Shown here: in pieces, positions 1 to 27,856 of the stretch
How positions within the stretch are numbered: position 1 is the first letter of the stretch
Layout: each line of letters starts with the position of its first letter
NCBI GenBank assembly: GCA_029834535.1
Contig: JAQMWT010000399.1
Coordinates: 1-44,192 of the forward strand
From: Chrysophaeum taylorii
Lineage: Eukaryota; Sar; Pelagophyceae; Pelagomonadales; Pelagomonadaceae
DNA: 44,192 nt
Direction of reading: 5' to 3'
Position numbers and translations under genes: made by a program
The notes under the pieces: model-generated
What the model saw: the letters and a program-made list of their open reading frames with translations, nothing else
Database searches by the model: none
Told to the model about the DNA's origin: nothing

Positions 1-1363
1 GCCGACGGTGACGTGAGAACGTTGAACGTGGGCTTGAAAACGAGAATTGCTTGCACGGACGAAGACGCTCTGGATCAACCTTCGCTGATCCGCTGGATCA
101 GGCCTGATACGATGTCAATCCTCTAACGACACCGGAGAAGGGGCGGCAGATGTTCCTGGAAATCGGCACAAGGTTCATTGGTACCCGCGCCTGCACCGCC
201 GGCACCGACATGTCAGCACACGAGTTTCCGACGACCGCTATCCGTTCCCAGATCTCGAGGGTCTTGACGCCGCGAACATCGGCAGCGCTCTTCCAAGGGT
301 CTGCCTCCGACGACGCCGCAAGTGGTAGGAAGTGATTTCGACTCTGAGAGCCCAGGGGGCGAAAGATATCGAGCCGGACGCACCCATAGCGGCCAGCATG
401 GCCGGGCTGCAGGACGCATTGTGGGACGAGGTGACGAGCCTCTCGCTTTGGGAGCGGCAAGTGCACGTCTGCGGCGCCGGTGATCCGCCTTTGATGCCAG
501 CCGGGTGTTGAGGAAGTTGAGTCGCCTCTCTGGCATTCTATGCCAACTGCGATCAGCAATGGATAGCTGCGGATCTCCAGAATAGAGCCAGCGCTTTTCA
601 ATCCCGAGACCGCGTGGGGGAAGTCCCAGGACCAAAATAGTTCTTGGAGACTGCCGATGCCGTTAGTCGTGAAGAACCCGAGGTCGTCTCGTGACGGCGC
701 GCCAGCCAACCAGGCGGAAAAATCTGACTCGTTGTCGTGCCTTCCCGCACGGCGCGAGCCGAAGAAACTGAACGGTGATAAAGCATGCGACGGCACCGGC
801 ACTGTGCCGTTGGATTCTGGCGATCTAGAAACGGGCTGCAACGCGTCCCTCTCCCTCCACGTCTCTATCCATCCCCTCGAGATCCGTTTCTTGCCTGGAG
901 GAGGAAGCGATCCAGATGACACTCTCGCGTGTCGATGCAGAGCCAGAGAGAGGCGTGCTTGTGCAGGAGCCAGAAACTAGCAATGTGCCCGATGAGTGGT
1001 GTGAGGCCACAGTCGACGCGTTGCCGTTGGCGGCTTCAGCGCCGAGTGAACCGACGGTGAGGATTCGACGCCAATCACCGGTGATCTCGAGGGTTGCCCA
1101 GCGAGCGATGCACCGACGAAGGTGGATTGCGGCGGCGAGCCATCGCTCGACGTTGTAAATGACGAGTGCGAACCAACTCCAACTCACGCGGCGCCGGACT
1201 TGGTCACATCGCCACGCGAGCAATCGAGCCTGGACCAAGCGGAGTCTTTGGAGCTGGAACCCGCGGCGCTTGCTTTGGCTGCAAACGCCGACGGTGACGT
1301 GACGGTTGATACGGCTGGCCTTGAAAACGAGCCTTGGCTGGGCACGGACGAAGACGCTCTGAC
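1..1363 (+). pseudogene. Degraded first visible copy of the 1257-bp unit of the giant gene
   Basis: This stretch aligns along its whole length with the 419-codon unit repeated downstream, but it carries many scattered one- or two-base insertions, deletions and substitutions up to about 950, so no long frame survives. From about 950 it is almost identical to the later copies, apart from a missing base near 1055 (ACGGTGAGG against ACGTGTGAGG) and one near 1363 (GACCCC against GACTCCC). The array clearly continues to the left of the window. The damage may be a real decayed edge copy, or poorly corrected consensus at a contig end. The sequence cannot separate these, but the abrupt change from noisy to clean favours the second. 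Confidence 0.7.
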
Positions 1364-3016
1364 CCCTTCGCTGATCCGCTGGATCAGCCTGATCACGATG
1401 TCAATCCTCTAACGACACCGGAGATAGGGGCGGCAGATGTTCCTGGAGAATCGGCACCAAGGTCTCAGTGGCTACCCGAGCCTGCGCCGCCGGCGAATGT
1501 CGACGTTTCCGACGACCGCCTCCTTCCAGATCTCGATGGTCTTGACACCGCGAACATCGGCAGCGCTCTTCCAAGGGATCTGCCTCCGACGACGCCGCAA
1601 GTGGTAGAAGCTGATTTCGACTCTGAAGCCCAGGGGGCGAAAGATATCGAGCCGGAAGCACCCATATGCGGCAGCATGCCGGAGCTGAAGGACGTTGTGG
1701 ACGAGGTGACGAGTTCTCTCGCTTTGGGAGCGCCAGTGCACGTCGCGGCGCCGAGTGATCCGCCCTTTGATGCCGGGCCGGGTGTTGAGGAAGTTGAGCT
1801 CGCCTCTCTGGCATTCATGCCAACTGACGATCATCAATTCGACGCTGCGGATTTCCAGAAAGAGCCAGCGCTTTTCAATCCCGATGACGCGTTGGTGGAA
1901 ACCAGGCAAACTAGTTCTGGAGACTGCGATGCCGTTCTCGAGGAAGAACCCGAGGTCGTCGTCGTCGACGGCGCGCCCAGCCAACCAGCGAAAAAATCTG
2001 ACTCGTTGTCGCGCCTTCCCGCACCGGCGCAAGTCGAAGAACTGGACGGTGATAAAGCATGCGACGGCCTCGGCACTTTGCCATTGGATTCTGGCGATCT
2101 AGAAACGTTGCTGCCACGCGTCTCTCCATCCCCTCGAGATCCGTTTCTTGCTGAGGTGGATACGGATCCAGATGACACTCTCGCGGTCGATGCAGAGCCA
2201 GAGAGAGGCGTGCTTATGCAGGAGCCAGAAACTAGCAATGTGCCCGATGAGTGGTGTGAGGCCACAGTCGACGCGTTGCCGTTGGCGGCTTCAGCGCCGA
2301 GTGAACCGACGTGTGAGGATTCGACGCCAATCACCGGTGATCTCGAGGGTTGCCCAGCGAGCGATGCACCGACGAAGGTGGATTGCGGCGGCGAGCCATC
2401 GCTCGACGTTGTAAATGACGAGTGCGAACCAACTCCAACTCACGCGGCGCCGGACTTGGTCACATCGCCACGCGAGCAATCGAGCCTGGACCAAGCGGAG
2501 TCTTTGGAGCTGGAACCCGCGGCGCTTGCTTTGGCTGCAAACGCCGACGGTGACGTGACGGTTGATACGGCTGGGCTTGAAAACGAGCCTTGGCTGGGCA
2601 CGGACGAAGACGCTCTGACTCCCTTCGCTGATCCGCTGGATCAGCCTGATCACGATGTCAATCCTCTAACGACACCGGAGATAGGGGCGGCAGATGTTCC
2701 TGGAGAATCGGCACCAAGGTCTCAGTGGCTACCCGAGCCTGCACCGCCGGCGAATGTCGACGTTTCCGACGACCGCCTCCTTCCAGATCTCGATGGTCTT
2801 GACGCCGCGAACATCAGCAGCGCTCTTCCAAGCGATCTGCCTCCGACGACGCCGCAAGTGGTAGAAGCTGATTTCGACTCTGAAGCCCAGGGGGGCGAAA
2901 GATATCGAGCCGGAAGCACCCATATGCGGCAGCATGCCGGAGCTGAAGGACGTTGTGGACGAGGTGACGAGTTCTCTCGCTTTGGGAGCGCCAGTGCACG
3001 TCGCGGCGCCGAGTGA
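1364..3016 (+). CDS. Giant repeat protein, segment A (419-residue unit)
   Basis: The segment reads in the array frame from the missing base near 1363 to a six-G run at 2890-2895, where every intact copy has five G. After the extra G the frame runs on only to a stop at 3016 and the product stops resembling the repeat. It covers one full 419-residue unit: the DPFADPLDQPDHD stretch, the PELKDVVDEV helix-like stretch, the EEEPEVVVVDG acidic patch, the SPRDPFLAE core and the SLDVVNDECEP stretch. The variants TDPDD and LMQEP are shared with the next copy, so these two are recent duplicates. I recognise no catalytic or folded domain. It is most likely an internal piece of one large gene rather than a separate gene. 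Confidence 0.6.
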   Translation, partial: PFADPLDQPDHDVNPLTTPEIGAADVPGESAPRSQWLPEPAPPANVDVSDDRLLPDLDGLDTANIGSALPRDLPPTTPQVVEADFDSEAQGAKDIEPEAPICGSMPELKDVVDEVTSSLALGAPVHVAAPSDPPFDAGPGVEEVELASLAFMPTDDHQFDAADFQKEPALFNPDDALVETRQTSSGDCDAVLEEEPEVVVVDGAPSQPAKKSDSLSRLPAPAQVEELDGDKACDGLGTLPLDSGDLETLLPRVSPSPRDPFLAEVDTDPDDTLAVDAEPERGVLMQEPETSNVPDEWCEATVDALPLAASAPSEPTCEDSTPITGDLEGCPASDAPTKVDCGGEPSLDVVNDECEPTPTHAAPDLVTSPREQSSLDQAESLELEPAALALAANADGDVTVDTAGLENEPWLGTDEDALTPFADPLDQPDHDVNPLTTPEIGAADVPGESAPRSQWLPEPAPPANVDVSDDRLLPDLDGLDAANISSALPSDLPPTTPQVVEADFDSEAQGGERYRAGSTHMRQHAGAEGRCGRGDEFSRFGSASARRGAE

Positions 3017-4121
3017 TCCGCTCTTTGATGCCGAGCCGGGTGTTGAGGAAGTTGAGCTCGCCTCTCTGGCATTCATGCCAACTGACGATCATCAATTCGA
3101 CGCTGCGGATTTCCAGAAAGAGCCAGCGCTTTTCCATCCCGATGACGCGTTGGTGGAAACCAGGCAAACTAGTTCTGGAGACTGCGATGCCGTTCTCGAG
3201 GAAGAACCCGAGGTCGTCGTCGTCGACGGCGCGCCCAGCCAACCAGCGAAAAAATCTGACTCGTTGTCGCGCCTTCCCGCACCGGCGCAAGTCGAAGAAC
3301 TGGACGGTGATAAAGCATGCGACGGCCTCGGCACTTTGCCATTGGATTCTGGCGATCTAGAAACGTTGCTGCCACGCGTCTCTCCATCCCCTCGAGATCC
3401 GTTTCTTGCTGAGGTGGATACGGATCCAGATGACACTCTCGCGGTCGATGCAGAGCCAGAGAGAGGCGTGCTTATGCAGGAGCCAGAAACTAGCAATGTG
3501 CCCGATGAGTGGTGTGAGGCCACAGTCGACGCGTTGCCGTTGGCGGCTTCAGCGCCGAGTGAACCGACGTGTGAGGATTCGACGCCAATCACCGGTGATC
3601 TCGAGGGTTGCCCAGCGAGCGATGCACCGACGAAGGTGGATTGCGGCGGCGAGCCATCGCTCGACGTTGTAAATGACGAGTGCGAACCAACTCCAACTCA
3701 CGCGGCGCCGGACTTGGTCACATCGCCACGCGAGCAATCGAGCCTGGACCAAGCGGAGTCTTTGGAGCTGGAACCCGCGGCGCTTGCTTTGGCTGCAAAC
3801 GCCGACGGTGACGTGACGGTTGATACGGCTGGGCTTGAAAACGAGCCTTGGCTGGGCACGGACGAAGACGCTCTGACTCCCTTCGCTGATCCGCTGGATC
3901 AGCCTGATCACGATGTCAATCCTCTAACGACACCGGAGATAGGGGCGGCAGATGTTCCTGGAGAATCGGCACCAAGGTCTCAGTGGCTACCCGAGCCTGC
4001 ACCGCCGGCGAATGTCGACGTTTCCGACGACCGCCTCCTTCCAGATCTCGATGGTCTTGACGCCGCGAACATCGGCAGCGCTCTTCCAAGGATCTGCCTC
4101 CGACGACGCCGCAAGTGGTAG
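2890..4121 (+). CDS. Giant repeat protein, segment B
   Basis: The array frame resumes after the six-G run and stays open to about 4090. There a GGG found in the other copies (CCAAGGGATC) is GG, and 60 bases on, near 4147, a GGGGG run is GGGG. The two deletions break the frame and the stop at 4121 follows. The first in-frame ATG is at 2934, inside the unit, so it is not a credible gene start. The segment carries the DPLFD variant where most copies have DPPFD, and the ALFH variant where most have ALFN. The coding content equals slightly less than one unit. Confidence 0.55.
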
Positions 4122-4147
4122 AAGCTGATTTCGACTCTGAAGCCCAG

Positions 4148-7071
4148 GGGCGAAAGATATCGAGCCGGAAGCACCCATATGCGGCAGCATGCCGGAGCTG
4201 AAGGACGTTGTGGACGAGGTGACGAGCTCTCTCGCTTTGGGAGCGCCAGTGCACGTCGCGGCGCCGAGTGATCCGCCCTTTGATGCCGAGCCGGGTGTTG
4301 AGGAAGTTGAGCTCGCCTCTCTGGCATTCATGCCAACTGACGATCATCAATTCGACGCTGCGGATTTCCAGAAAGAGCCAGCGCTTTTCAATCCCGATGA
4401 CGCGTTGGTGGAAACCAGGCAAACTAGTTCTGGAGACTGCGATGCCGTTCTCGAGGAAGAACCCGAGGTCGTCGTCGTCGACGGCGCGCCCAGCCAACCA
4501 GCGGAAAAATCTGACTCGTTGTCGTGCCTTCCCGCACCGGCGCGAGTCGAAGAACTGGACGGTGATAAAGCATGCGACAGCCTCGGCACTTTGCCATTGG
4601 ATTCTGGCGATCTAGAAACGTTGCTGCCACGCGTCTCTCCATCCCCTCGAGATCCGTTTCTTGCTGAGGTGGATGCGGATCCAGATGACACTCTCGCGGT
4701 CGATGCAGAGCCAGAGAGAGGCGTGCTTGTGCAGGAGCCAGAAACTAGCAATGTGCCCGATGAGTGGTGTGAGGCCACAGTCGACGCGTTGCCGTTGGCG
4801 GCTTCAGCGCCGAGTGAACCGACGTGTGAGGATTCGACGCCAATCACCGGTGATCTCGAGGGTTGCCCAGCGAGCGATGCACCGACGAAGGTGGATTGCG
4901 GCGGCGAGCCATCGCTCGACGTTGTAAATGACGAGTGCGAACCAACTCCAACTCACGCGGCGCCGGACTTGGTCACATCGCCACGCGAGCAATCGAGCCT
5001 GGACCAAGCGGAGTCTTTGGAGCTGGAACCCGCGGCGCTTGCTTTGGCTGCAAACGCCGACGGTGACGTGACGGTTGATACGGCTGGGCTTGAAAACGAG
5101 CCTTGGCTGGGCACGGACGAAGACGCTCTGACTCCCTTCGCTGATCCGCTGGATCAGCCTGATCACGATGTCAATCCTCTAACGACACCGGAGATAGGGG
5201 CGGCAGATGTTCCTGGAGAATCGGCACCAAGGTCTCAGTGGCTACCCGAGCCTGCACCGCCGGCGAATGTCGACGTTTCCGACGACCGCCTCCTTCCAGA
5301 TCTCGATGGTCTTGACGCCGCGAACATCGGCAGCGCTCTTCCAAGGGATCTGCCTCCGACGACGCCGCAAGTGGTAGAAGCTGATTTCGACTCTGAAGCC
5401 CAGGGGGCGAAAGATATCGAGCCGGAAGCACCCATATGCGGCAGCATGCCGGAGCTGAAGGACGTTGTGGACGAGGTGACGAGCTCTCTCGCTTTGGGAG
5501 CGCCAGTGCACGTCGCGGCGCCGAGTGATCCGCCCTTTGATGCCGAGCCGGGTGTTGAGGAAGTTGAGCTCGCCTCTCTGGCATTCATGCCAACTGACGA
5601 TCATCAATTCGACGCTGCGGATTTCCAGAAAGAGCCAGCGCTTTTCAATCCCGATGACGCGTTGGTGGAAACCAGGCAAACTAGTTCTGGAGACTGCGAT
5701 GCCGTTCTCGAGGAAGAACCCGAGGTCGTCGTCGTCGACGGCGCGCCCAGCCAACCAGCGGAAAAATCTGACTCGTTGTCGTGCCTTCCCGCACCGGCGC
5801 GAGTCGAAGAACTGAACGGTGATAAAGCATGCGACGGCCTCGGCACTTTGCCATTGGATTCTGGCGATCTAGAAACGTTGCTGCCACGCGTCTCTCCATC
5901 CCCTCGAGATCCGTTTCTTGCTGAGGTGGAAGCGGATCCAGATGACACTCTCGCGGTCGATGCAGAGCCAGAGAGAGGCGTGCTTGTGCAGGAGCCAGAA
6001 ACTAGCAATGTGCCCGATGAGTGGTGTGAGGCCACAGTCGACGCGTTGCCGTTGGCGGCTTCAGCGCCGAGTGAACCGACGTGTGAGGATTCGACGCCAA
6101 TCACCGGTGATCTCGAGGGTTGCCCAGCGAGCGATGCACCGACGAAGGTGGATTGCGGCGGCGAGCCATCGCTCGACGTTGTAAATGACGAGTGCGAACC
6201 AACTCCAACTCACGCGGCGCCGGACTTGGTCACATCGCCACGCGAGCAATCGAGCCTGGACCAAGCGGAGTCTTTGGAGCTGGAACCCGCGGCGCTTGCT
6301 TTGGCTGCAAACGCCGACGGTGACGTGACGGTTGATACGGCTGGGCTTGAAAGCGAGCCTTGGCTGGGCACGGACGAAGACGCTCTGACTCCCTTCGCTG
6401 ATCCGCTGGATCAGCCTGATCACGATGTCAATCCTCTAACGACACCGGAGATAGGGGCGGCAGATGTTCCTGGAGAATCGGCACCAAGGTCTCAGTGGCT
6501 ACCCGAGCCTGCACCGCCGGCGAATGTCGACGTTTCCGACGACCGCCTCCTTCCAGATCTCGATGGTCTTGACGCCGCGAACATCGGCAGCGCTCTTCCA
6601 AGGGATCTGCCTCCGACGACGCCGCAAGTGGTAGAAGCTGATTTCGACTCTGAAGCCCAGGGGGCGAAAGATATCGAGCCGGAAGCACCCATATGCGGCA
6701 GCATGCCGGAGCTGAAGGACGTTGTGGACGAGGTGACGAGCTCTCTCGCTTTGGGAGCGCCAGTGCACGTCGCGGCGCCGAGTGATCCGCCCTTTGATGC
6801 CGAGCCGGGTGTTGAGGAAGTTGAGCTCGCCTCTCTGGCATTCATGCCAACTGACGATCATCAATTCGACGCTGCGGATTTCCAGAAAGAGCCAGCGCTT
6901 TTCAATCCCGATGACGCGTTGGTGGAAACCAGGCAAACTAGTTCTGGAGACTGCGATGCCGTTCTCGAGGAAGAACCCGAGGTCGTCGTCGTCGACGGCG
7001 CGCCCAGCCAACCAGCGAAAAATCTGACTCGTTGTCGTGCCTTCCCGCACCGGCGCAAGTCGAAGAACTGA
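4148..7071 (+). CDS. Giant repeat protein, segment C (more than two units)
   Basis: From the G-run break near 4147 the array frame is open through more than two 419-residue units, up to an A run at 7018-7022. That run has five A after GCG, whereas other copies have six A, or GG followed by five A (giving AKKS or AEKS). Losing one A sends the frame to a stop at 7071. The first ATG in frame is at 4189. The copies change from VDADPDD to VEADPDD and from AGLEN to AGLES along this stretch, a gradient expected from stepwise tandem duplication. The product is strongly acidic and rich in Pro, Ala and Val, with few aromatics. Confidence 0.6.
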
Positions 7072-10000
7072 ACGGTGATAAAGCATGCGACGGCCTCGGC
7101 ACTTTGCCATTGGATTCTGGCGATCTAGAAACGTTGCTGCCACGCGTCTCTCCATCCCCTCGAGATCCGTTTCTTGCTGAGGTGGAAGCGGATCCAGATG
7201 ACACTCTCGCGGTCGATGCAGAGCCAGAGAGAGGCGTGCTTGTGCAGGAGCCAGAAACTAGCAATGTGCCCGATGAGTGGTGTGAGGCCACAGTCGACGC
7301 GTTGCCGTTGGCGGCTTCAGCGCCGAGTGAACCGACGTGTGAGGATTCGACGCCAATCACCGGTGATCTCGAGGGTTGCCCAGCGAGCGATGCACCGACG
7401 AAGGTGGATTGCGGCGGCGAGCCATCGCTCGACGTTGTAAATGACGAGTGCGAACCAACTCCAACTCACGCGGCGCCGGACTTGGTCACATCGCCACGCG
7501 AGCAATCGAGCCTGGACCAAGCGGAGTCTTTGGAGCTGGAACCCGCGGCGCTTGCTTTGGCTGCAAACGCCGACGGTGACGTGACGGTTGATACGGCTGG
7601 GCTTGAAAGCGAGCCTTGGCTGGGCACGGACGAAGACGCTCTGACTCCCTTCGCTGATCCGCTGGATCAGCCTGATCACGATGTCAATCCTCTAACGACA
7701 CCGGAGATAGGGGCGGCAGATGTTCCTGGAGAATCGGCACCAAGGTCTCAGTGGCTACCCGAGCCTGCACCGCCGGCGAATGTCGACGTTTCCGACGACC
7801 GCCTCCTTCCAGATCTCGATGGTCTTGACGCCGCGAACATCGGCAGCGCTCTTCCAAGGGATCTGCCTCCGACGACGCCGCAAGTGGTAGAAGCTGATTT
7901 CGACTCTGAAGCCCAGGGGGCGAAAGATATCGAGCCGGAAGCACCCATATGCGGCAGCATGCCGGAGCTGAAGGACGTTGTGGACGAGGTGACGAGCTCT
8001 CTCGCTTTGGGAGCGCCAGTGCACGTCGCGGCGCCGAGTGATCCGCCCTTTGATGCCGAGCCGGGTGTTGAGGAAGTTGAGCTCGCCTCTCTGGCATTCA
8101 TGCCAACTGACGATCATCAATTCGACGCTGCGGATTTCCAGAAAGAGCCAGCGCTTTTCAATCCCGATGACGCGTTGGTGGAAACCAGGCAAACTAGTTC
8201 TGGAGACTGCGATGCCGTTCTCGAGGAAGAACCCGAGGTCGTCGTCGTCGACGGCGCGCCCAGCCAACCAGCGAAAAAATCTGACTCGTTGTCGTGCCTT
8301 CCCGCACCGGCGCGAGTCGAAGAACTGAACGGTGATAAAGCATGCGACGGCCTCGGCACTTTGCCATTGGATTCTGGCGATCTAGAAACGTTGCTGCCAC
8401 GCGTCTCTCCATCCCCTCGAGATCCGTTTCTTGCTGAGGTGGAAGCGGATCCAGATGACACTCTCGCGGTCGATGCAGAGCCAGAGAGAGGCGTGCTTGT
8501 GCAGGAGCCAGAAACTAGCAATGTGCCCGATGAGTGGTGTGAGGCCACAGTCGACGCGTTGCCGTTGGCGGCTTCAGCGCCGAGTGAACCGACGTGTGAG
8601 GATTCGACGCCAATCACCGGTGATCTCGAGGGTTGCCCAGCGAGCGATGCACCGACGAAGGTGGATTGCGGCGGCGAGCCATCGCTCGACGTTGTAAATG
8701 ACGAGTGCGAACCAACTCCAACTCACGCGGCGCCGGACTTGGTCACATCGCCACGCGAGCAATCGAGCCTGGACCAAGCGGAGTCTTTGGAGCTGGAACC
8801 CGCGGCGCTTGCTTTGGCTGCAAACGCCGACGGTGACGTGACGGTTGATACGGCTGGGCTTGAAAGCGAGCCTTGGCTGGGCACGGACGAAGACGCTCTG
8901 ACTCCCTTCGCTGATCCGCTGGATCAGCCTGATCACGATGTCAATCCTCTAACGACACCGGAGATAGGGGCGGCAGATGTTCCTGGAGAATCGGCACCAA
9001 GGTCTCAGTGGCTACCCGAGCCTGCACCGCCGGCGAATGTCGACGTTTCCGACGACCGCCTCCTTCCAGATCTCGATGGTCTTGACGCCGCGAACATCGG
9101 CAGCGCTCTTCCAAGGGATCTGCCTCCGACGACGCCGCAAGTGGTAGAAGCTGATTTCGACTCTGAAGCCCAGGGGGCGAAAGATATCGAGCCGGAAGCA
9201 CCCATATGCGGCAGCATGCCGGAGCTGAAGGACGTTGTGGACGAGGTGACGAGCTCTCTCGCTTTGGGAGCGCCAGTGCACGTCGCGGCGCCGAGTGATC
9301 CGCCCTTTGATGCCGAGCCGGGTGTTGAGGAAGTTGAGCTCGCCTCTCTGGCATTCATGCCAACTGACGATCATCAATTCGACGCTGCGGATTTCCAGAA
9401 AGAGCCAGCGCTTTTCAATCCCGATGACGCGTTGGTGGAAACCAGGCAAACTAGTTCTGGAGACTGCGATGCCGTTCTCGAGGAAGAACCCGAGGTCGTC
9501 GTCGTCGACGGCGCGCCCAGCCAACCAGCGGAAAAATCTGACTCGTTGTCGTGCCTTCCCGCACCGGCGCGAGTCGAAGAACTGAACGGTGATAAAGCAT
9601 GCGACGGCCTCGGCACTTTGCCATTGGATTCTGGCGATCTAGAAACGTTGCTGCCACGCGTCTCTCCATCCCCTCGAGATCCGTTTCTTGCTGAGGTGGA
9701 AGCGGATCCAGATGACACTCTCGCGGTCGATGCAGAGCCAGAGAGAGGCGTGCTTGTGCAGGAGCCAGAAACTAGCAATGTGCCCGATGAGTGGTGTGAG
9801 GCCACAGTCGACGCGTTGCCGTTGGCGGCTTCAGCGCCGAGTGAACCGACGTGTGAGGATTCGACGCCAATCACCGGTGATCTCGAGGGTTGCCCAGCGA
9901 GCGATGCACCGACGAAGGTGGATTGCGGCGGCGAGCCATCGCTCGACGTTGTAAATGACGAGTGCGAACCAACTCCAACTCACGCGGTGCCGGACTTGGT

Positions 10001-10841
10001 CACATCGCCACGCGAGCAATCGAGCCTGGACCAAGCGGAGTCTTTGGAGCTGGAACCCGCGGCGCTTGCTTTGGCTGCAAACGCCGACGGTGACGTGACG
10101 GTTGATACGGCTGGGCTTGAAAACGAGCCTTGGCTGGGCACGGACGAAGACGCTCTGACTCCCTTCGCTGATCCGCTGGATCAGCCTGATCACGATGTCA
10201 ATCCTCTAACGACACCGGAGATAGGGGCGGCAGATGTTCCTGGAGAATCGGCACCAAGGTCTCAGTGGCTACCCGAGCCTGCACCGCCGGCGAATGTCGA
10301 CGTTTCCGACGACCGCCTCCTTCCAGATCTCGATGGTCTTGACGCCGCGAACATCAGCAGCGCTCTTCCAAGGGATCTGCCTCCGACGACGCCGCAAGTG
10401 GTAGAAGCTGATTTCGACTCTGAAGCCCAGGGGGCGAAAGATATCGAGCCGGAAGCACCCATATGCGGCAGCATGCCGGAGCTGAAGGACGTTGTGGACG
10501 AGGTGACGAGCTCTCTCGCTTTGGGAGCGCCAGTGCACGTCGCGGCGCCGAGTGATCCGCTCTTTGATGCCGAGCCGGGTGTTGAGGAAGTTGAGCTCGC
10601 CTCTCTGGCATTCATGCCAACTGACGATCATCAATTCGACGCTGCGGATTTCCAGAAAGAGCCAGCGCTTTTCAATCCCGATGACGCGTTGGTGGAAACC
10701 AGGCAAACTAGTTCTGGAGACTGCGATGCCGTTCTCGAGGAAGAACCCGAGGTCGTCGTCGTCGACGGCGCGCCCAGCCAACCAGCGAAAAATCTGACTC
10801 GTTGTCGTGCCTTCCCGCACCGGCGCGAGTCGAAGAACTGA
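7020..10841 (+). CDS. Giant repeat protein, segment D (three units)
   Basis: The array frame reopens after the short A run at 7018-7022 and stays open for three full units. It ends at the same kind of break, GCG followed by five A near 10,788-10,792, with a stop at 10,841. These units share the EADPDD, LVQEP and AGLES variants, and the last one switches to THAVP and AGLEN. No start codon in a credible context occurs, since candidates near 7032 lie inside the unit. That identical A-run shortening occurs in two non-adjacent units could reflect gene conversion, or a systematic homopolymer error. Confidence 0.6.
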   Translation, partial: KSDSLSCLPAPAQVEELNGDKACDGLGTLPLDSGDLETLLPRVSPSPRDPFLAEVEADPDDTLAVDAEPERGVLVQEPETSNVPDEWCEATVDALPLAASAPSEPTCEDSTPITGDLEGCPASDAPTKVDCGGEPSLDVVNDECEPTPTHAAPDLVTSPREQSSLDQAESLELEPAALALAANADGDVTVDTAGLESEPWLGTDEDALTPFADPLDQPDHDVNPLTTPEIGAADVPGESAPRSQWLPEPAPPANVDVSDDRLLPDLDGLDAANIGSALPRDLPPTTPQVVEADFDSEAQGAKDIEPEAPICGSMPELKDVVDEVTSSLALGAPVHVAAPSDPPFDAEPGVEEVELASLAFMPTDDHQFDAADFQKEPALFNPDDALVETRQTSSGDCDAVLEEEPEVVVVDGAPSQPAKKSDSLSCLPAPARVEELNGDKACDGLGTLPLDSGDLETLLPRVSPSPRDPFLAEVEADPDDTLAVDAEPERGVLVQEPETSNVPDEWCEATVDALPLAASAPSEPTCEDSTPITGDLEGCPASDAPTKVDCGGEPSLDVVNDECEPTPTHAAPDLVTSPREQSSLDQAESLELEPAALALAANADGDVTVDTAGLESEPWLGTDEDALTPFADPLDQPDHDVNPLTTPEIGAADVPGESAPRSQWLPEPAPPANVDVSDDRLLPDLDGLDAANIGSALPRDLPPTTPQVVEADFDSEAQGAKDIEPEAPICGSMPELKDVVDEVTSSLALGAPVHVAAPSDPPFDAEPGVEEVELASLAFMPTDDHQFDAADFQKEPALFNPDDALVETRQTSSGDCDAVLEEEPEVVVVDGAPSQPAEKSDSLSCLPAPARVEELNGDKACDGLGTLPLDSGDLETLLPRVSPSPRDPFLAEVEADPDDTLAVDAEPERGVLVQEPETSNVPDEWCEATVDALPLAASAPSEPTCEDSTPITGDLEGCPASDAPTKVDCGGEPSLDVVNDECEPTPTHAVPDLVTSPREQSSLDQAESLELEPAALALAANADGDVTVDTAGLENEPWLGTDEDALTPFADPLDQPDHDVNPLTTPEIGAADVPGESAPRSQWLPEPAPPANVDVSDDRLLPDLDGLDAANISSALPRDLPPTTPQVVEADFDSEAQGAKDIEPEAPICGSMPELKDVVDEVTSSLALGAPVHVAAPSDPLFDAEPGVEEVELASLAFMPTDDHQFDAADFQKEPALFNPDDALVETRQTSSGDCDAVLEEEPEVVVVDGAPSQPAKNLTRCRAFPHRRESKN

Positions 10842-16800: not shown

Positions 16801-19800
16801 CGCTTTGGGAGCGCCAGTGCACGTCGCGGCGCCGAGTGATCCGCCCTTTGATGCCGAGCCGGGTGTTGAGGAAGTTGAGCTCGCCTCTCTGGCATTCATG
16901 CCAACTGACGATCATCAATTCGACGCTGCGGATTTCCAGAAAGAGCCAGCGCTTTTCAATCCCGATGACGCGTTGGTGGAAACCAGGCAAACTAGTTCTG
17001 GAGACTGCGATGCCGTTCTCGAGGAAGAACCCGAGGTCGTCGTCGTCGACGGCGCGCCCAGCCAACCAGCGAAAAACTCTGACTCGTTGTCGTGCCTTCC
17101 CGCACCGGCGCGAGTCGAAGAACTGAACGGTGATAAAGCATGCGACGGCCTCGGCACTTTGCCATTGGATTCTGGCGATCTAGAAACGTTGCTGCCACGC
17201 GTCTCTCCATCCCCTCGAGATCCGTTTCTTGCTGAGGTGGAAGCGGATCCAGATGACACTCTCGCGGTCGATGCAGAGCCAGAGAGAGGCGTGCTTGTGC
17301 AGGAGCCAGAAACTAGCAATGTGCCCGATGAGTGGTGTGAGGCCACAGTCGACGCGTTGCCGTTGGCGGCTTCAGCGCCGAGTGAACCGACGTGTGAGGA
17401 TTCGACGCCAATCACCGGTGATCTCGAGGGTTGCCCAGCGAGCGATGCACCGACGAAGGTGGATTGCCGCAGCGAACTGGCTTTTGCGCATTTATTGGAG
17501 GATTTTACTTGTGGGCAGACATTGTCTACTGCTGAAACCTTTATGTACATTGTGGAATCACCGACGGAAGCCGTTTGTGTGTATCTTGATGCGAATTCTG
17601 ATGGAATCTCTGTTGCTGCCATCCCGTGTGACCGGATACCGCACGATATCGTGATTGATGTTGAGCCCACACTTAATTTGGACGACTGCTATCCCGGCGA
17701 AAAATCTCAGGAGGTTCGTTACTTGGCTCCTCCTGATTCTCCAGTTAGTGTTGATGTGGTGACTGCGGAGGATGCGCCACAGTTCAAAAGTGTAAGCACC
17801 GTTCCTACGGATGCCGCGATAAAGATGGAATTGGTTCCAGTGTTGATGGCGTCTGCCCGACCCACTGTCGATGATGACTTCGATCCTGAGGACTATTTAT
17901 TAGACGACGCTCAGCCTTTGAAACCAATGCATCCTGTTGAACCATCGAGCGATGCTATGGCTGACGAACACACTTTTGCTCTTGCAGAAGTGCACACCGA
18001 CATTGTTGATTCACCCGTTGAAACCGTCTTCTTCTTTGTTGCTGTGAAATCCGAAGAAACCTTGCTCCCTACTGTTCCGTACGACAAGGCACTACATGAC
18101 GTTGTGATTGAAGTTGAGCCCACGGTCGAGTTGTGCATTGACGAGCCCAGCGAAGTAACAGTGCAAGAGCGACACATGGTTCCGCCGGCACAGCCAGCGA
18201 GCGTCGATCTGCTGACTTCGGAGGATGCGCCGCAGCTTGAAAGTCAAAGCCCCGTGCCGATGGAAGCTGTCTCGAGGACTGATCTCCTTCCAGAGATTAC
18301 GACGGTTCCTCGCGTCTCGCTTGCAGGTGACGATGACATCGACCCTCACGATCATTTATTGTTGGACACTCGGCCCTTCAAGCCGATGCATCCTGTTGAA
18401 CCGTCTTACGAAGCCGTGTCCGACGGACTCACTCACGCTCGTGCAGAAGTACCCATCGACGCTTCTGAGTCACCGGTCGAACTCTCTCTACTGTCGGCTG
18501 CTGGGGAGCACGAGGAAACCTTGCTCGCTGCTGTCCCTTACGACAAGAAGGCACCGAATGACGTCGTGACTCATGTCGAGCCCACGTTTAACTTTAGCAC
18601 AGACGAGCCCGTATTTGTGGCGTTGCAGGGCCGATACATGGATCCTCCGTTATCGCCAACTATCGTTGACGTGCTGCATGCCGAGGACTCGCCGAAAATA
18701 GAAAGCCTAGGCTCAGTACCTATGGAAGCTGTCGCGAGTTGTGACGTCGTTCCTGTAATTGTGGCGTCTCCTCGTCTTTTGTTCGCAGCTGATGATGGCG
18801 TCGACCCGGAGGATTCTTTATTCGTAGACGCGCAGCCGTTGCAAACGACGCCGTCTGGCGAGCCGTGCCTTGCTATCATTGCTGACAAGGCGTCTCTTAC
18901 TCGCGCTGAAAAATCCGAAGAGATATCCGTCGAGTCTCCGGTCGAGCCTGTATTTGTATCGCCCGTGACGGAGCCCGAAAACTGTTCCCTCTCGGCTGCC
19001 CCGTGCGGTAGCCTCGCTGTGGACGTCTCGGAGACCACCCACGAGCCAAAGCTTATCCTGGATAAGCAAGAGTCATCAGTCAGCCTTACCATCCCAATTG
19101 ACACACAACTGCAGGGCGTTTTGGAACCACGAGAGTCGATGGTAGTGGTGACGCAGGACCTGCTTGGGTTTGCCAAACCAATGGACAAGATGCCGCATGA
19201 CGTTGTGATTGAAGTCGAGCCCACGGTCGAGTTGTGCATTGACGAGCCCAGCGAAGTAACAGTGCAAGAGCGACACATGGTTCCGCCGGCACAGCCAGCG
19301 AGCGTCGATCTGCTGACTTCGGAGGATGCGCCGCAGCTTGAAAGTCAAAGCCCCGTGCCGATGGAAGCTGTCTCGAGGACTGATCTCCTTCCAGAGATTA
19401 CGACGTTTCCTCGCGTCTCGCTTGCAGGTGACGATGACATCGACCCTCACGATCATTTATTGTTGGACACTCGGCCCTTCAAGCCGATGCATCCTGTTGA
19501 ACCGTCTTACGAAGCCGTGTCCGACGGACTCACTCACGCTCATGCAGAAGTGCCCATCGACGCTTCTGAGTCACCGGTCGAACTCTCTCTACTGCCGGCT
19601 GCTGGGGAGCACGAGGAAACCTTGCTCGCTGCTGTCCCTTACGACAAGAAGGCACCGAATGACGTCGTGACTCATGTCGAGCCCACGTTTAACTTTAGCA
19701 CAGACGAGCCCGTATTTGTGGCGTTGCAGGGCCGATACATGGATCCTCCGTTATCGCCAACTATCGTTGACGTGCTGCATGCCGAGGACGCGCCGAAAAT

Positions 19801-22800
19801 AGAAAGCCTAGGCTCAGTACCTATGGAAGCTGTCGCGAGTTGTGACGTCGTTCCTGTAATTGTGGCGTCTCCTCGTCTTTTGTTCGCAGCTGATGATGGC
19901 GTCGACCCGGAGGATTCTTTATTCGTAGACGCGCAGCCGTTGCAAACGACGCCGTCTGGCGAGCCGTGCCTTGCTATCATTGCTGACAAGGCGTCTCTTA
20001 CTCGCGCTGAAAAATCCGAAGAGATATCCGTCGAGTCTCCGGTCGAGCCTGTATTTGTATCGCCCGTGACGGAGCCCGAAAACTGTTCCCTCTCGGCTGC
20101 CCCGTGCGGTAGCCTCGCTGTGGACGTCTCGGAGACCACCCACGAGCCAAAGCTTATCCTGGATAAGCAAGAGTCATCAGTCAGCCTTACCATCCCAATT
20201 GACACACAACTGCAGGGCGTTTTGGAACCACGAGAGTCGATGGTAGTGGTGACGCAGGACCTGCTTGGGTTTGCCAAACCAATGGACAAGATGCCGCATG
20301 ACGTTGTGATTGAAGTCGAGCCCGCGGTCGAGTTGTGCATTGACGAGCCCAGCGAAGTAACAGTGCAAGAGCGACACATGGTTCCGCCGGCACAGCCAGC
20401 GAGCGTCGATCTGCTGACTTCGGAGGATGCGCCGCAGCTTGAAAGTCAAAGCCCCGTGCCGATGGAAGCTGTCTCGAGGACTGATCTCCTTCCAGAGATT
20501 ACGACGTTTCCTCGCGTCTCGCTTGCAGGTGACGATGACATCGAACCTCACGATCATGTATTGTTGGACACTCGGCCCTTCAAGCCGATGCATCCTGTTG
20601 AACCGTCTTACGAAGCCGTGTCCGACGGACTCACTCACGCTCATGCAGAAGTGCCCATCGACGCTTCTGAGTCACCGGTCGAACTCTCTCTACTGTCGGC
20701 TGCTGGGGAGCACGAGGAAACCTTGCTCGCTGCTGTCCCTTACGACAAGAAGGCACCGAATGACGTCGTGACTCATGTCGAGCCCACGTTTAACTTTAGC
20801 ACAGACGAGCCCGTATTTGTGGCGTTGCAGGGCCGATACATGGATCCTCCATTATCGCCAACTATCGTTGACGTGCTGCATGCCGAGGACGCGCCGAAAA
20901 TAGAAAGCCTAGGCTCAGTACCTATGGAAGCTGTCGCGAGTTGTGACGTCGTTCCTGTAATTGTGGCGTCTCCTCGTCTTTTGTTCGCAGCTGATGATGG
21001 CGTCGACCCGGAGGATTCTTTATTCGTAGACGCGCAGCCGTTGCAAACGACGCCGTCTGGCGAGCCGTGCCTTGCTATCATTGCTGACAAGGCGTCTCTT
21101 ACTCGCGCTGAAAAATCCGAAGAGATATCCGTCGAGTCTCCGGTCGAGCCTGTATTTGTATCGCCCGTGACGGAGCCCGAAAACTGTTCCCTCTCGGCTG
21201 CCCCGTGCGGTAGCCTCGCTGTGGACGTCTCGGTGACCACCCACGAGCCAAAGCTTATCCTGGATAAGCAAGAGTCATCAGTCAGCCTTACCATCCCAAT
21301 TGACACACAACTGCAGGGCGTTTTGGAACCACGAGAGTCGATGGTAGTGGTGACGCAGGACCTGCTTGGGTTTGCCAAACCAATGGACAAGATGCCGCAT
21401 GACGTTGTGATTGAAGTCGAGCCCACGGTCGAGTTGTGCATTGACGAGCCCAGCGAAGTAACATTGCAAGAGCGACACATGGTTCCGCCGGCACAGCCTG
21501 CGAGCGTCGATCTGCTGACAGCGGAGGATGCGCCGCAGCTTGAAAGTCAAAGCCCCGTGCCGATGGAAGCTGTCTCGAGGACTGATCTCCTTCCAGAGAT
21601 TACGACGTTTCCTCGCGTCTCGCTTGCAGGTGACGATGACATCGACCCTCACGATCATTTATTGTTGGACACTCGGCCCTTCAAGCCGATGCATCCTGTT
21701 GAACCGTCTTACGAAGCCGTGTCCGACGGACTCACTCACGCTCATGCAGAAGTGCCCATCGACGCTTCTGAGTCACCGGTCGAACTCTCTCTACTGTCGG
21801 CTGCTGGGGAGCACGAGGAAACCTTGCTCGCTGCTGTCCCTTACGACAAGAAGGCACCGAATGACGTCGTGACTCATGTCGAGCCCACGTTTAACTTTAG
21901 CACAGACGAGCCCGTATTTGTGGCGTTGCAGGGCCGATACATGGATCCTCCATTATCGCCAACTATCGTTGACGTGCTGGACGCGCCGCAAATAGAAAGC
22001 CCAAGGCCCTTTTCAAGGGAAGCTGCCTCGAGGATTGATCTCATTCCAGAGATTGCGACGCCTCCTTCTATTCTCGTCGCGTTTGACGATGACACCGACC
22101 CCGAGGAATTTGTGTGGATGGACGGTTGTCCGTCGAATCCAACGCTTTCTGGAGAGCCCTTCTTCGAAGTCGGGAATGACAGACTCGCTTTTGTTCGCAA
22201 AGATGAGCCCACTTACACTGCTGAGTCACCATCCGAACCCATCTTTGTATCCCCTGCGGCTGACTCTGATAAGGCCTCGCTCACCCCCCCACAGAGCAAC
22301 AAGGCACCACGTGATGTGGCTCTTGAAACTGAACCGACGGTCGATTTGAGCGCTGAGGAGCCTGGCCGAGCAGCGTCCTACGAGCCACGCGTGGTTAAGG
22401 CCGTGTTGCCGTCAAGTATCGATATCGTTGACGCGGAAGATGCGGGATGCCGTGATCCTATGCCGATGGTGATTGCCGTGGCGGTCAATCTATTTCCGTA
22501 CATTGCTTCGTCTACTCGACGCTCGATCGCACCAGTTGATGACATGGATCCTTTCGACAATTTGATGGCTGCTTGGGAGCCACAGAAACCAGAATTATGC
22601 ACTGAGCCCGTGCTGAGCGAAACCGTGATGGAGTGTGATCCAATTCGCGCTGAGAAAGTAACCGAGGTCGCCGCTTCACCGACCGAATCGGCTGACGTCT
22701 CGAATTCTTACTATGATCATAAGATCGATCGTAGTTCACAAGAGACTGCAGCCGTGCCGATGCCTCGCGTGCCAGCAAGTGTTGTTCTTGTGGACGCTGA

Positions 22801-25800
22801 GGACTTGCCCCATCTGGGAAGTTCTAATACCACACCCAAGCAAGCGGTAGCTGTGGATAATCTTCTTCCGGACTTCGTGGTGTCGCCCTCTGCACTTTTT
22901 GCGGATGTCGACGTTCGTGCGAACGAAACTTTAGAAGCATGCGAGGCGACGGACCGCGTAGCACCACCAATCGAACCAAGCTTGGAAGATCTGGCAGCGA
23001 TCGCTGATTTCGATGGTCCCTTACTAGCATCAGTCTTTCCTAATTTCCGCTCGGCGCTGGACGGTCCGACTCTCGAACGAGAACCAAGACTGAGCACTGC
23101 TAATAATCCTCACCCGATGATTGTACCGCAACCACTAATCCAAGCGTCGCCGTCGCCACCAGAAGTTGGCAAAGAAGATGGATACTGTCACATCCTGTGG
23201 GGTGCCAATGTATCTCCGACTACAGCTCGAGCATCTCTGAGGCTTGCGCCTCGAGCGCCAGCGAGCGTCGACTCGACGAATTTCGAGGAAGGGCCGGAAT
23301 GCGAAGATTCGGCGTTTTGCGCACCGTTGGACAGTCTACTTTCCGATATCGCGGTATCGCCTGTTGTCCCTGTACACGTTGAAAACGACTGCGATCCTGA
23401 TGATAATTTGGTGAACGATCTTGAACCCGAAGTCCCAATCTCGACAAACGAGCCGACAGGAAACAACAACGCCGAGGATGCGAGCATTCCGGCACAAAGC
23501 GAAAGTGCTCTGGGAATCGTGGGGGCGCCAATTGAACAACCTCTCGCCGTTGGACAAGTCGTCGTCGATTTGGATCTTGACATAGAGTTCGCGGCACTTC
23601 CGGAAGAAGTCGCTGTTATGCTTCGAATACCAGAGGCAGTAGACCTCGTGGACGCGGATGACGAGGCAAGGAGTTTAAGCCCCGACGTCGTGACCGTTTC
23701 CATTAATATGAACGAGCTGCTCCCAGACGTTGTGGCAACGACGCCGAAAGACCTATTTGCTCTAGAGGGCGATTTTGATCCCGCGGATGATCTAGAAGCT
23801 GCAAACCAGCCGGTGACGCGGTCGCCTCCTCCTCTCGAGCCGGTCCTAAACGAAACTGCTTCTGACGGCGGTGGTGCCGATCCAAGCCACATCCCCGGGA
23901 TTCAACTCACGATGCTTCCAACAACAGACTTAGTCGCGTTTGCTTGCGAGATCCGAAGAAGTATGGATGACCAAGAACTTGCGTGCAGCTTGAATGTTGA
24001 GCAACCCGTTGTCGTCGAGCCCGTGCCGTCACTACTTGAAGAAGAAGAAGAAGAAGCATTTGTCAGCGAGATCAATGACGACGTTTGTGCTGTGGGTGCC
24101 TTTCCAGAAACACCAGGGCCTCGGCCTGTAGTTGAACCCTTGGAGTCGCACGACGTGTCAGTCCTCCCGCACCATATCAGCACCGAACAAGCACTGGGAG
24201 CTGCGGCCGTGTTGCAACCTTCGACGCCATCGGTTGTGGATATTACGTGTTTCGAAGAAGATAGTCCGTTGGCGCCTGGTTGTGACGTGAATTTTGGCGT
24301 GCGCGTCGCGATTATGCGGCAGCTTAATAAGTTTCCCAAATTCATCGCGTCCCCAAGGTATCTCCTGATTGACGATGACGTCGACCCGTTTGACCGCGTT
24401 GATCTCGCCGTCGAGCAGACGGCGGTTCCAGAAATCCCAAGCGCCGTAACAACGTTGCGCGACGTCATCTTGGAAGATGGTGAAAATGCGTTTCTTGAAC
24501 GTGCGTTGTTGTCCACCTTTCTGGTAGCGCCCGTCCCATCTCGAATCGAATTGAGTTCGGTTGCAGTCCGAGACGCCGAACTTCATCTTCTTCCAAATAG
24601 TCTCCCTGCTGTGAACTTCCGAGCTGAGATCGAGCGCGACGAAGTTGACCTTTGGAAGCTAGACGCCGCTCTGCCGACCGTCGAAGCATCGCCTGATGAA
24701 GCGACGACCACCCCCAAAGCTACCAAGCCGTGTGCGCGTTGTGAAGCACCGCGGCATCTGTTGGCCCCTTCGGACTTTATTGAAGAGGAGGTCGTGGACG
24801 TAATTGGAACGGCCGCGGCTGCGGTGCCAACGGGCGTTGTCGTGCAGCCGCTAGAGACATCATCGATGCTCTCAACTGTTAGAGACACAGCACCGTCCCC
24901 AAAATCTCGAGACGACAATCCAGCAGTTTCTGTTGCTGTTGGTGCTCTCCTTGGAAGCGGAGTCAGCAATGAACTATGGGTTTGCGAGAAGGATACTTCA
25001 AAGGAAACGTCGTCGAGGATCCGCGCTATTCACCACGCAGTTTTTGTTGCCGCATCGCTCGAGGAACCTACGACGACGATGATGGAGCTCGATATCGTGA
25101 CGCCCACCTCGCTTTCTGACGTAGATAGTGTCGATAATGCAGTTCCGTCTCCAGTCGAACTCGAGGAGCCGCCGCAGATAATCTTCGAGGTCGATCGACG
25201 CAGCGCGCCAGCGAGCTGGCCATCCGCTCCACAATGCATGGTGGAAAAAACCACGCATAGCCATAATCTCGACGAAGTTCACCGCGCGAAGATAAGTCGT
25301 TGGCAGCAGCGGCCGTTTGTTCCACGCGGACAACTCGAGGGCGCGCGCATCTCAGACGAGGATCGACCTAAGTCATCAATGTCAGACGAAGACCGGAGCG
25401 CATTAATGCAAGATGAGGTGTGTGTGCTCGAGATCCGCCGTTCGTTCCGAGCCCCGCATCCGATCGCTCCCCTCGTGGAGCACAAGTATCTTCCACAAAA
25501 GCTCGAGATTCCGCCGCCGATCGAAATAGAGATTCGCACGAACTTCAAACACCAGGCGGGATACTTCCGTGGGTCCAGCATGATACCACGTGTCCCTCCC
25601 CGCGCGTTGTTTTGCAACCCCGTTCCCGAGCCCGTCGAGATTGTGATTCGTACGAACTTTAGGCACCACACGGCGGGATACTTGCGAGGGTCTGTCAATG
25701 TCGGTCCTCCTCGTGCCGCGCACCGCGCATTGCTCGGCAACCCCGTACCTGAGCCGATAGAGATTGAGATCCGCACGAACTTCATGCATCGCCAATACAA

Positions 25801-27856
25801 CGCGAGGGGCAGCTTATCCTCAGGGATCAACAGCATAGGGCCTCGTGCCGCGCACCGCGCGTTGCTCTGCAACCCCGTGCCCGAGCCGATAGAGATTGAA
25901 ATTCGCACGAACTTCAGGCACCAACACTACCACCCATCGAGGGGCAGGGGCAGCTGCAGCTCCTCCTCGGGGGTCAACAGTATTGGGCCTCGTGCCGCGC
26001 ACCGCGCGTTGCTCTGCAACCCCGTGCCCGAGCCGATAGAGATTGAAATCCGCACGAACTTCAGGAACCAACACCACCGCACGACCAACGGCTCAACCAC
26101 GGGTGTCAACAGTATTGGACCACGCGCCGCACACCGCGCGTTGCCCTGCAACCCGGTGCCCGAGCCCTACGAAATCGAGATCCGCACGAATTTCGGGCAC
26201 TCCGGACACCGCCCGCCCGTAGTCTTTCCTGTCCCTTACCGCGCGTTGCTCTGCAACCCCGTGCCCGAGCCGTACGAAATCGAGATCCGCACGAACTTCA
26301 GGAACCAACACCACCGCACGACTAACGGCTCAACCACGGGTGTCAACAGTATTGGACCACGCGCCGCACACCGCGCGTTGCCCTGCAACCCGGTGCCCGA
26401 GCCCTACGAAATCGAGATCCGCACGAATTTCGGGCACTCCGGACACCGCCCGCCCGTAGTCTTTCCTGTCCCTTACCGCGCGTTGCTCTGCAACCCCGTA
26501 CCCGAGCCGTACGAAATCGAGATCCGCACGAACTTCAGGAACCAACACCACCGCACGACTAACGGCTCAACCACGGGTGTCAACAGTATTGGACCACGCG
26601 CCGCACACCGCGCGTTGCCCTGCAACCCGGTGCCCGAGCCCTACGAAATCGAGATCCGCACGAATTTCGGGCACTCCGGACACCGCCCGCCCGTAGTCTT
26701 TCCTGTCCCTTACCGCGCATTGCTCTGCAACCCCGTGCCCGAGCCGTACGAAATCGAGATCCGCACGAACTTTGGACTCAAAAAAAAGGCTGCGCCACCG
26801 CGCGTTTTGCCTCGTACCCCACACCGCCGCGCATTGCTCAGCAACCGGGTGCCCGAACCATACGAAATCGAAATCCGCACGAATTTCAGCACGCGAGACG
26901 CCAGCACGAACGCGTCTCTCGCGGCCGCGTCTTTGCCTACCCCGCAAGAGATTGAAATACGTACGAATTTCGGGGCATCGCCTTCGCCCCTCCGTTCGCC
27001 GGCGGAGCGCTTTGCGTTTACGTCAACGCCGAGACCCGACGACGTGCGCACGCCCGCGGCGGCGGCCACCACCCCAGTTCGCGCGCGGCGCGTCATCACG
27101 CCCGACGTATTCAAAACGCCGGTCAAGACGCCCGCCTTGGGGTGGAAGATTGGCGTGCCATCGACGCCGGGCGAAGTGCGTTCCACGGACAAGCCAGAGA
27201 CGCCTTGCGGGTTGTCTTCGATTCGTCGGTTTGGCGGCCGTGAGACTCAGCGCACGATTGCCTCGTTCGTTCCTGTCACGCTGAGCGTCGCGCTACGCGT
27301 CGTGATGAAGCAAGTCACCGACAGGGAGCGGCCGCCAACTGGTATCGTCAAGCCAAAGAAAAGAGCGCTGCCCGTCCTCGCGCCCCGCGAGCCCTACGTT
27401 ACAGACGTTGTCTCGTTCGGCGAGGCGGAGCCACCGACGGCGTCGCGACTCCCCGCCTTGCCGCCACTCCCGGCGGAGGGATCGCTCTTCGACGAAGCTT
27501 CGACCGACCTCGTGTTCATATCTCCAATTCGCGCGGATCCGCCACCCGTGCCGCGCCTCTCTGGCGACGACGACGACGACGACGAAGAAGAAGATTCCGC
27601 GGGCGGCCTCTTTATTGTCAATCTCACGTACAAAAACCTCGCTGGAGTCGCGATTCGCAAGCTCGCCCGCAGTACTGTTGCCCGATCGCGGTTGCCGCGC
27701 CGGCCCTTGGCGCCGCGAGAGACAGTGCTTGAGGCAGACATCAGCAGCAGCAGCCTAGAGAGCATCCTAGTCGCCGCCACAAACACTGCCGGCGAAAGTT
27801 ATTACATCGATGACGACGTCGGGGCCCAAGTCTCGTGCGTGCGTGCACTTCCGTAG
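10791..27856 (+). CDS. Giant multi-repeat acidic protein, C-terminal 5,680 or so residues
   Basis: This is a single uninterrupted frame of about 17 kb, ending at the TAG at 27,856. In order it holds the last 419-residue units (to 17,466), a bridging module, 3.5 copies of a 367-residue unit (18,095-21,979), several diverged single modules (to about 24,500), a unique stretch, 13 EIEIRTNF motifs (25,523-26,971), and a Thr-Pro-rich basic tail. The tail has an acidic Asp/Glu run near 27,565-27,600 and two LAPRE boxes (near 27,379 and 27,709). The body is very acidic and Pro-rich and looks disordered. I see no enzyme motif, membrane segment or known fold. The N-terminus is outside the window, so secretion cannot be judged. 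It could be a structural, scaffold or matrix protein, but that is a guess. Its 3' end faces the gene at 28,156-29,463. Confidence 0.85.
18095..21979 (+). repeat. Second tandem array, 1101-bp coding units, 3.5 copies
   Basis: Copies begin at 18,095, 19,196, 20,297 and 21,398 (HDVVIEVEP), exactly 1101 bases (367 codons) apart. The fourth stops after about 582 bases, where CATGCCGAG is missing and the sequence diverges. Each unit contains two related submodules. One is the HDVVIEVEP to PVELSLL half, the other the PNDVVTHVEP to PVEPVFVSP half. A linker (CGSLAVDVSETT to LLGFAKPMDK) completes the unit. Copies differ at only a handful of positions. Confidence 0.95.
22000..24460 (+). repeat. Diverged single modules related to the 367-residue unit
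   Basis: After the second array the protein keeps the same architecture with strong divergence. Acidic DPxD cores stand near 22,085 (DDDTDPEE), 22,537 (DDMDPFD), 23,388 (DCDPDD), 23,768 (GDFDPADD) and 24,371 (DDDVDPFD). Most are preceded by a P-x-I/V-x-x-SP-type stretch, and some are followed by an EP. The paired VD-x-x-x-A/E-ED box recurs between them (DIVDAEDA, LVDAEDLP, LVDADDEA). These look like old copies of the module that was later amplified upstream. Confidence 0.7.
25523..26971 (+). repeat. 13 copies of the EIEIRTNF motif in the giant protein
   Basis: The octapeptide starts at 25523, 25637 (as EIVIRTNF), 25760, 25892, 26039, 26171, 26276, 26408, 26513, 26645, 26750, 26864 and 26948. 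Most copies are preceded by a conserved RAL-L/P-CNPVPEP-I/Y and followed by variable linkers (Gly/Ser/His/Asn/Thr-rich). Spacing is 28-49 residues. The near-invariance of the octapeptide against free linkers suggests a binding motif or a beta-strand-forming module. I do not recognise it as a known domain. Confidence 0.9.
26060..26770 (+). repeat. 237-bp higher-order tandem repeat, three copies
   Basis: Inside the EIEIRTNF array a block of 79 codons with two motifs (FRNQHHRTTNGST... and FGHSGHRPPVVFP...) is present three times at exactly 237-base spacing (motif starts 26,039, 26,276, 26,513 and 26,750). The copies are almost base-identical, so this expansion is recent and separate from the older motif array. 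Confidence 0.9.

Follow-up and report, generated by a model that had tools for sequence, protein, structure and literature searches.

A giant gene, very likely shared by two contigs of Chrysophaeum taylorii, and a possible spacer role for its repeat protein

What kind of gene fills the left 27.8 kb of contig JAQMWT010000399.1 of the microalga Chrysophaeum taylorii, how far does it reach, and what might its protein do? The window analyzed here is this contig (C399), taken from contig base 1 over its full 44,192 nt, in a genome assembly of 70.8 Mb and 697 contigs. Its left edge cuts through an array of near-identical 419-residue units, and what lies in the window is no more than the gene's 3' half. 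A first-pass annotation had described a frame still open at the left edge that coded for an acidic protein of more than 9,000 residues. The open edge is right in substance, as C399 starts in the middle of a unit, and unit and frame recur at the facing end of a second contig, C159. The size is an underestimate; with C159, the protein would reach ~19,400 residues. No prior report of the gene is present among the matches listed in open-licence PMC papers.

Comparison of the 419-residue unit with the whole genome yields 47 matches confined to C399 and C159 (51 of 51 candidates scored), all in a single orientation and at the contig ends that face each other. At the right end of C159, a frame stays open for 9,805 codons (9,799 residues counted from its first ATG, C159:58180), and in it eight full units at 77110–87165 are flanked by partial units on both sides; the array runs out in noisy copies where the contig ends, at 88655. 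The C159 frame has a start and no stop ahead of this noisy end, and C399 has the stop. If the contigs abut, their assembled coding DNA, noisy ends counted, amounts to ~19,443 codons, a total that excludes any gap at the unassembled junction; the two clean frames (9,799 + 5,684) make up 15,483 codons and 1.64 MDa (1,033 + 606 kDa). The idea that the two contigs show one stretch twice was rejected, as sliding the eight C159 units along the 13 full C399 units nowhere brought the two sets into register: even the best offset averages 8.0 mismatches per unit, compared with 10.2 over all 104 unit pairs, two of which are identical. At least 21 (8 + 13) full units thus exist, unless alleles or errors mislead. 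Three probes from further parts of the gene match this locus alone, apart from E values of 0.0165 (C59) and 0.0097 (C315); the C59 match is to positions 25415–27853, otherwise single copy in the genome. The two contigs very likely carry one single-locus gene, with no introns in the parts seen, that codes for ~19,400 residues plus any gap. C159 would contribute the 5' half and C399 the 3' half, their separation reflecting an assembly failure, and the joined protein would have a mass of ~2 MDa.

From N- to C-terminus, the protein comprises an N block, 214-residue units, 419-residue units, 367-residue units, diverged modules, a motif array and a tail (Table 1). The N block (~3,420 residues; 14.3% Ser, 15.2% Pro) is basic, with an isoelectric point (pI) of 9.6, and is itself repetitive, at spacings mostly of 303–318 and 459–621 nt. 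Ten 214-residue units follow, starting at residues 4004–5930 of the C159 frame. The acidic pieces have pI values of 4.05–4.13 (core ~4.1), and lysine plus arginine (K+R) make up 3.8% of the 419-residue unit and 5.2% of the 367-residue unit. The 13 motifs near the C-terminus mostly read PVPEPxEIEIRTNF and are separated by spacers of varying length. The earlier description of an acidic protein with a basic tail fits the core but not the N block; near the C-terminus, the motif array (pI about 9.7–10.0; 9.7 for 25200–26960) is more basic than the tail (8.6, or 7.9 with other bounds). Approximately 14 near-identical 419-residue units had been proposed; the array is real and has 13 full units, of which the first (732–2005) is noisy with further indels inside, plus a partial unit on either side. 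The 3.5 copies of the 367-residue unit, and the diverged modules followed by a 13-copy motif array, were described correctly.

Table 1. Features of the giant gene within the window.
Feature	Position	Strand	Basis or detail
419-residue unit remnant (unit positions 538–1257), indel-rich	1–731	+	blastn 87.7% identity, 59 gap openings
419-residue (1,257 bp) unit array	732–17475	+	13 full units + 389-nt partial on right
Longest unbroken frame of giant gene in window, 5,684 residues with stop	10802–27856	+	open reading frame list
Diverged acidic stretch between two arrays, one module	17476–18094	+	hidden Markov model match
367-residue (1,101 bp) unit array, 3.5 copies	18095–21979	+	206 + 3 x 1101 + 376 nt
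Six diverged module copies	21950–24478	+	hidden Markov model, E 1.9e-18 to 4.4e-29
Basic region, 13 EIEIRTNF-type motifs	25523–26971	+	pattern matches
C-terminal tail (294 residues) + stop codon	26972–27856	+	stop at 27854–27856

The first-pass annotation listed the 419-residue units, the 367-residue units and the diverged modules separately. All are present, and hidden Markov model (HMM) matches that are absent from controls join these parts of the window into one family, built on a module of ~95 residues (~95–150 residues by another account). An HMM built from 16 seed modules, which are counted among its matches, gives 58 modules at E<1e-3, of which 25 lie in the C399 frame and 33 in the C159 frame; the 12 control sequences, two of them reversed and ten shuffled in 50-residue blocks, give none. 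A one-module HMM gives 20 + 3 = 23 matches, versus none in the controls. Each 367-residue unit contains two module copies, and the 214-residue unit aligns to residues 110–314 of the 419-residue unit at 53% identity. The module between the two arrays lies at residue 2311 (nt 17732; E 1.1e-29) and is itself an HMM seed. The six diverged copies (residues 3717, 3869, 3988, 4150, 4276 and 4473) are likewise all among the seeds; a single-sequence HMM that uses none of them still gives them E values of 9.6e-25, 6.8e-10, 6.8e-7, 1.3e-5, 6.4e-4 and 0.012. The N block yields weak matches (the best, at residue 2583, has E 4.8e-6) and none with the one-module HMM; its membership of the family is only suggested by these sequence scores. 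By our estimate, the acidic core would contain ~70 repeats of the module.

Several lines of evidence support a coding function for the diverged copies. First, the ratio of nonsynonymous to synonymous substitution (dN/dS) is 0.39–0.79 in 31 of 31 diverged repeat pairs, with no stops and with changes most frequent at third positions; these pairs lie outside the near-identical arrays, were aligned by codon under protein guidance and are not independent of each other. Second, repeat alignments made at the DNA level without protein guidance begin in phase in 40/40 and 29/29 cases (69/69). Third, mismatches in these two sets, whose pairs overlap, number 963/885/1321 and 1076/783/1468 at the three codon positions, an excess at the third. 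As judged from such substitution patterns, coding selection is shown to act on the diverged copies. Codon usage, measured against a reference of four genes and 889 codons, does not speak for coding overall and partly speaks against it: it backs the giant frame by a clear margin in the motif array and tail alone, and by 0.01 in the 367-residue array.

With a rough probability of 0.5, we read this gene as coding for one giant, probably mostly disordered triblock protein that would serve as a cytosolic spacer or spring with docking ends. Its acidic core lies between two basic blocks, the N block rich in Ser and Pro and the C block bearing the 13 sticker-like motifs. Amplification of the core may have proceeded in levels, from the module to the 214-, 367- and 419-residue units and then to arrays, and the number of units could shift by unequal exchange, which the homogeneous 419-residue units with their shuffled variants would fit. 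The basic end blocks would dock on partners such as the cytoskeleton, nucleic acid or multivalent proteins, and the acidic, proline-rich core would behave as an entropic spacer or spring, longer or shorter according to how many units it has. That such a spacer is held at both ends is suggested by the way charge is distributed, by the length of the chain and by the absence of a recognizable fold; the spacer/spring mechanism is what we infer from these sequence properties. A more specific proposal, tentative and rather doubtful, is that an almost fully disordered triblock of ~19,000 residues serves this lineage as a molecular spring or ruler, that gain and loss of 1,257 bp units tune its length, and that calcium could compact it through a D-rich, DxDxDP-like motif.

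The predicted physical character of the protein is in part consistent with this spacer reading. AlphaFold2 modelling of 14 aligned modules gave a mean predicted local distance difference test score (pLDDT) of 58.5 and a predicted template modelling score (pTM) of 0.12, with a single four-residue helix from a shallow alignment; low confidence of this kind is as expected for disorder, but a depth of 14 sequences alone can give a poor model. Disorder of the module is a tentative prediction. On a charge–hydropathy basis, residues 1–1000 and 4001–9805 of the C159 frame and 1–2000 of the C399 frame are disordered; by block, the 214- and 419-residue arrays are classed as disordered, and the 367-residue and C-terminal parts are not. 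No transmembrane segments are found in the two clean frames, where the highest 19-residue hydropathy is 1.63, and hydrophobic stretches were rejected as membrane segments on this basis. No signal peptide follows the first ATG: the N-terminus reads MSRGDMGRASSFDD, and the highest 13-residue hydropathy in the first 80 residues is 0.99. Provided that ATG 58180 is the true start, there is neither a plastid targeting segment of the pyrenoid-linker type at the N-terminus nor the signal peptide or membrane anchor of secreted mucin- or wall-like repeat proteins, and a secreted or plastid location is rejected on these grounds.

Other observations weigh against the spacer reading. The C159–C399 junction is not assembled. 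The end of a mobile element, probably Helitron-like, lies 88 bp before the ATG (C159:58080 region), and the start codon may therefore not be original. Residues 1001–4000 of the C159 frame and 2001–5684 of the C399 frame lie slightly beyond the charge–hydropathy boundary, where folding is predicted. Gap length in the DNA-level alignments is indivisible by three in 104 of 198 and 152 of 222 cases, and codon usage prefers another frame in the N block and in the 214-residue, 419-residue and diverged parts. Among 20 near-identical 419-residue units, 28 nonsynonymous and 11 synonymous changes are present, compared with 2,842 and 929 possible ones; such near-neutral variation in the recent units implies hardly any constraint on the precise sequence of the core.

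The main rival is a condensate scaffold, in which motifs and modules would act as stickers and the protein, instead of having a mechanical or spacing role, would recruit partners multivalently or undergo phase separation driven by charge. Stickers could be found in the acidic modules, in the N repeats rich in Ser, Pro and Arg and in the 13 EIEIRTNF copies; short motifs recur regularly on variable spacers, charge blocks are of opposite sign, and the low-confidence model of the module shows no fold. However, provided that translation starts at the first ATG, the missing hydrophobic N-terminal targeting segment speaks against a plastid location and hence against a pyrenoid linker. We consider this scaffold possible, although not probable.

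It is unlikely that the contigs carry two genes, one each, that have the 419-residue unit in common and do not combine into a single 19,000-residue protein. The missing junction would permit this, and C159 alone would still code for 9,799 residues and C399 for at least 5,684; however, both arrays run into noisy contig ends that face each other, unit matches are reported on no third contig, and one contig has a start without a stop while the other has a stop and units that reach its left edge. A fast-drifting, little-used frame, grown by unequal exchange and with hardly any function, has slim prospects. The near-neutral recent units, the lack of any relative found, the mobile-element end just upstream and the failure of codon usage to single out most of the frame all favor drift. 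Against it stand the 15,483 codons in two unbroken frames, thousands of them outside the near-identical arrays, and the dN/dS values below 1 in every diverged pair.

The one frame over ~27.8 kb that the first-pass annotation proposed does not exist as assembled, as the frame shifts at ~2.9, 4.1, 7.02 and 10.79 kb. The pieces span 1334–3016, 2934–4121, 4189–7071, 7032–10841 and 10802–27856, and from position 2006 onward five single-base indels (~2890, 4090, 4147, 7018 and 10788) break the frame, all in G3, G5 or A6 runs as judged by comparison with one unit. Four of the 12 full C399 units after the first bear one or two single-base indels. Noise rises at the contig ends: bases 1–1000 of C399 show 66 indel events and 35 mismatches relative to the unit, compared with 0–2 indel events in each of the six following 500-base bins, and C159 has 22 indel events in 87156–88155 and 5 in 88156–88655, the six bins of 500 bases ahead of 87156 being free of them. 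Short G and A runs, together with noise only at the two contig ends, suggest assembly error; the frame breaks and ~1 kb of contig-end noise most likely reflect such error, worst where contigs end within a repeat. That the breaks are real and the window copy a pseudogene, as its five indels, the further ones in 732–2005 and the noisy first kilobase might be taken to mean, is very improbable given the equal-base runs of 3, 5 or 6 in which the five lie, the rise in noise only at contig ends and the unbroken 9,805-codon frame on C159.

The earlier statement that no part belongs to a known family held up. Pfam searches at E 0.1 covered the whole clean C399 frame and residues 1–3607 from the C159 ATG, and no family has a matched stretch of its own there. 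Within these parts, there are no Ig/FnIII domains as in titin, no KS/AT/ACP or other catalytic domains and no membrane-skeleton family, including the alveolin-type repeat, whose Pfam name we take to be IMCp. KdpD scores above its curated cut-off over the whole 2,283-residue array piece (43.5 versus 26.1 bits, E 3.2e-11) with no single passing stretch. PTS_EIIA_1, BRCA2_TR2 and GlyL_C (Pfam) score below their cut-offs, as does PurS (NCBIfam) on the C-terminus. All five matches were dismissed because no single stretch passes, and are read as weak scores summed over identical repeats. Homologues were sought among length-matched candidates, a range that giant relatives annotated in other lengths could escape, and with queries other than the N block; none were found for residues 3700–5684 (1,013 length-comparable candidates scored), the C-terminal 813 residues (7,989) or the 14-module alignment (7,995). 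Viral contigs contain no confirmed relative of the C-terminus (600 pattern matches) or of the 419-residue unit (1). Phages and plasmids yielded no match, the PDB none to the C-terminus or module alignment, and PHROGs none to four pieces.

The PEVK region of titin is disordered and has lysine-rich repeats, the repeat regions of epiplastins and alveolins are rich in E, V and P, and the PKZILLA proteins are giant polyketide synthases encoded by giant genes in a microalga. The C. taylorii protein shares with PKZILLA a giant microalgal gene and differs in having no catalytic domain in the scanned parts. In design it comes close to giant disordered or cytoskeletal proteins; in sequence it belongs to none of the families tested. 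Like titin (connectin; PMC12198301), it would be a giant chain, and its repeats, rich in proline and acidic residues, are the proposed entropic spacer; unlike titin, it has a lysine-poor core (K+R as above), lacks Ig/FnIII domains where scanned and belongs to no muscle. FAZ10 of trypanosomes, a giant cytoskeletal protein (PMC5358337), is likewise giant in a unicellular eukaryote, a likeness by description. PYCO1, the diatom pyrenoid linker (PMC10288592), also has repeats with sticker motifs, but the C. taylorii protein is far larger, has an acidic core and lacks an N-terminal targeting segment. Epiplastins and alveolins (PMC6212826) differ from it in that no membrane-skeleton match is present in the scanned parts.

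The surroundings of the gene contain several other elements. The 24 bp sequence GGTGAACTTACTGGCCTGCACTTG has 1,893 genome copies (912 + 981; reversed control 0), in places tandem at about every 1.04 kb among the first matches listed, with a window site at 41040–42320. It adjoins Pif1-type helicase remnants (PF21530, 23.5 bits versus a cut-off of 23.9), which suggests that it probably belongs to a Helitron-like element. Next to the giant gene, on the minus strand, a convergent 435-residue frame (28156–29463) has WLL-containing repeats by eye, an acidic end and no Pfam family. At 30716–33598, a 2,883 bp element has the look of a hAT-type transposon, with 18 bp identical inverted ends that start CAGCG, an 8 bp flanking duplication, AATATTAT, several broken frames and no Pfam match in the frames scanned. 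Two overlapping frames at 34135–35456 have repeated RGRG-ATxPAWM-like motifs and probably reflect another single-base break. A papain-family (PF00112) cysteine protease, cathepsin Z-like by eye, occupies two frames at 36805–37621, and Copia-like reverse transcriptase remnants lie on the minus strand at the right contig end (42985–44192; RVT_2 at 43460–43927, E 0.0018, below cut-off). On C159, 44451–53707 contains seven frames of 199–292 residues spaced 1.36–1.49 kb apart; three, when translated, are near-identical, and two were scanned without a Pfam family. Genome-wide, 84 matches to the chlorophyll-binding family PF00504 indicate a photosynthetic alga. Leaders with AFAP, a motif that we take to mark red-type complex plastids, occur at two of six loci examined, from which the host would belong to algae with such plastids. 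A conserved 21-mer of small-subunit ribosomal RNA has no match in the assembly.

If C159 and C399 carry one gene, its product would stand among the largest eukaryotic proteins, in the company of titin and PKZILLA, with one of the longest eukaryotic coding frames; it would be very large as disordered proteins go, and no relative of it was detected. Giant genes of this kind break assemblies and may therefore be undercounted. The nested repeats, from module to unit to array, record the growth of a giant chain and would allow a test of whether array length matters.

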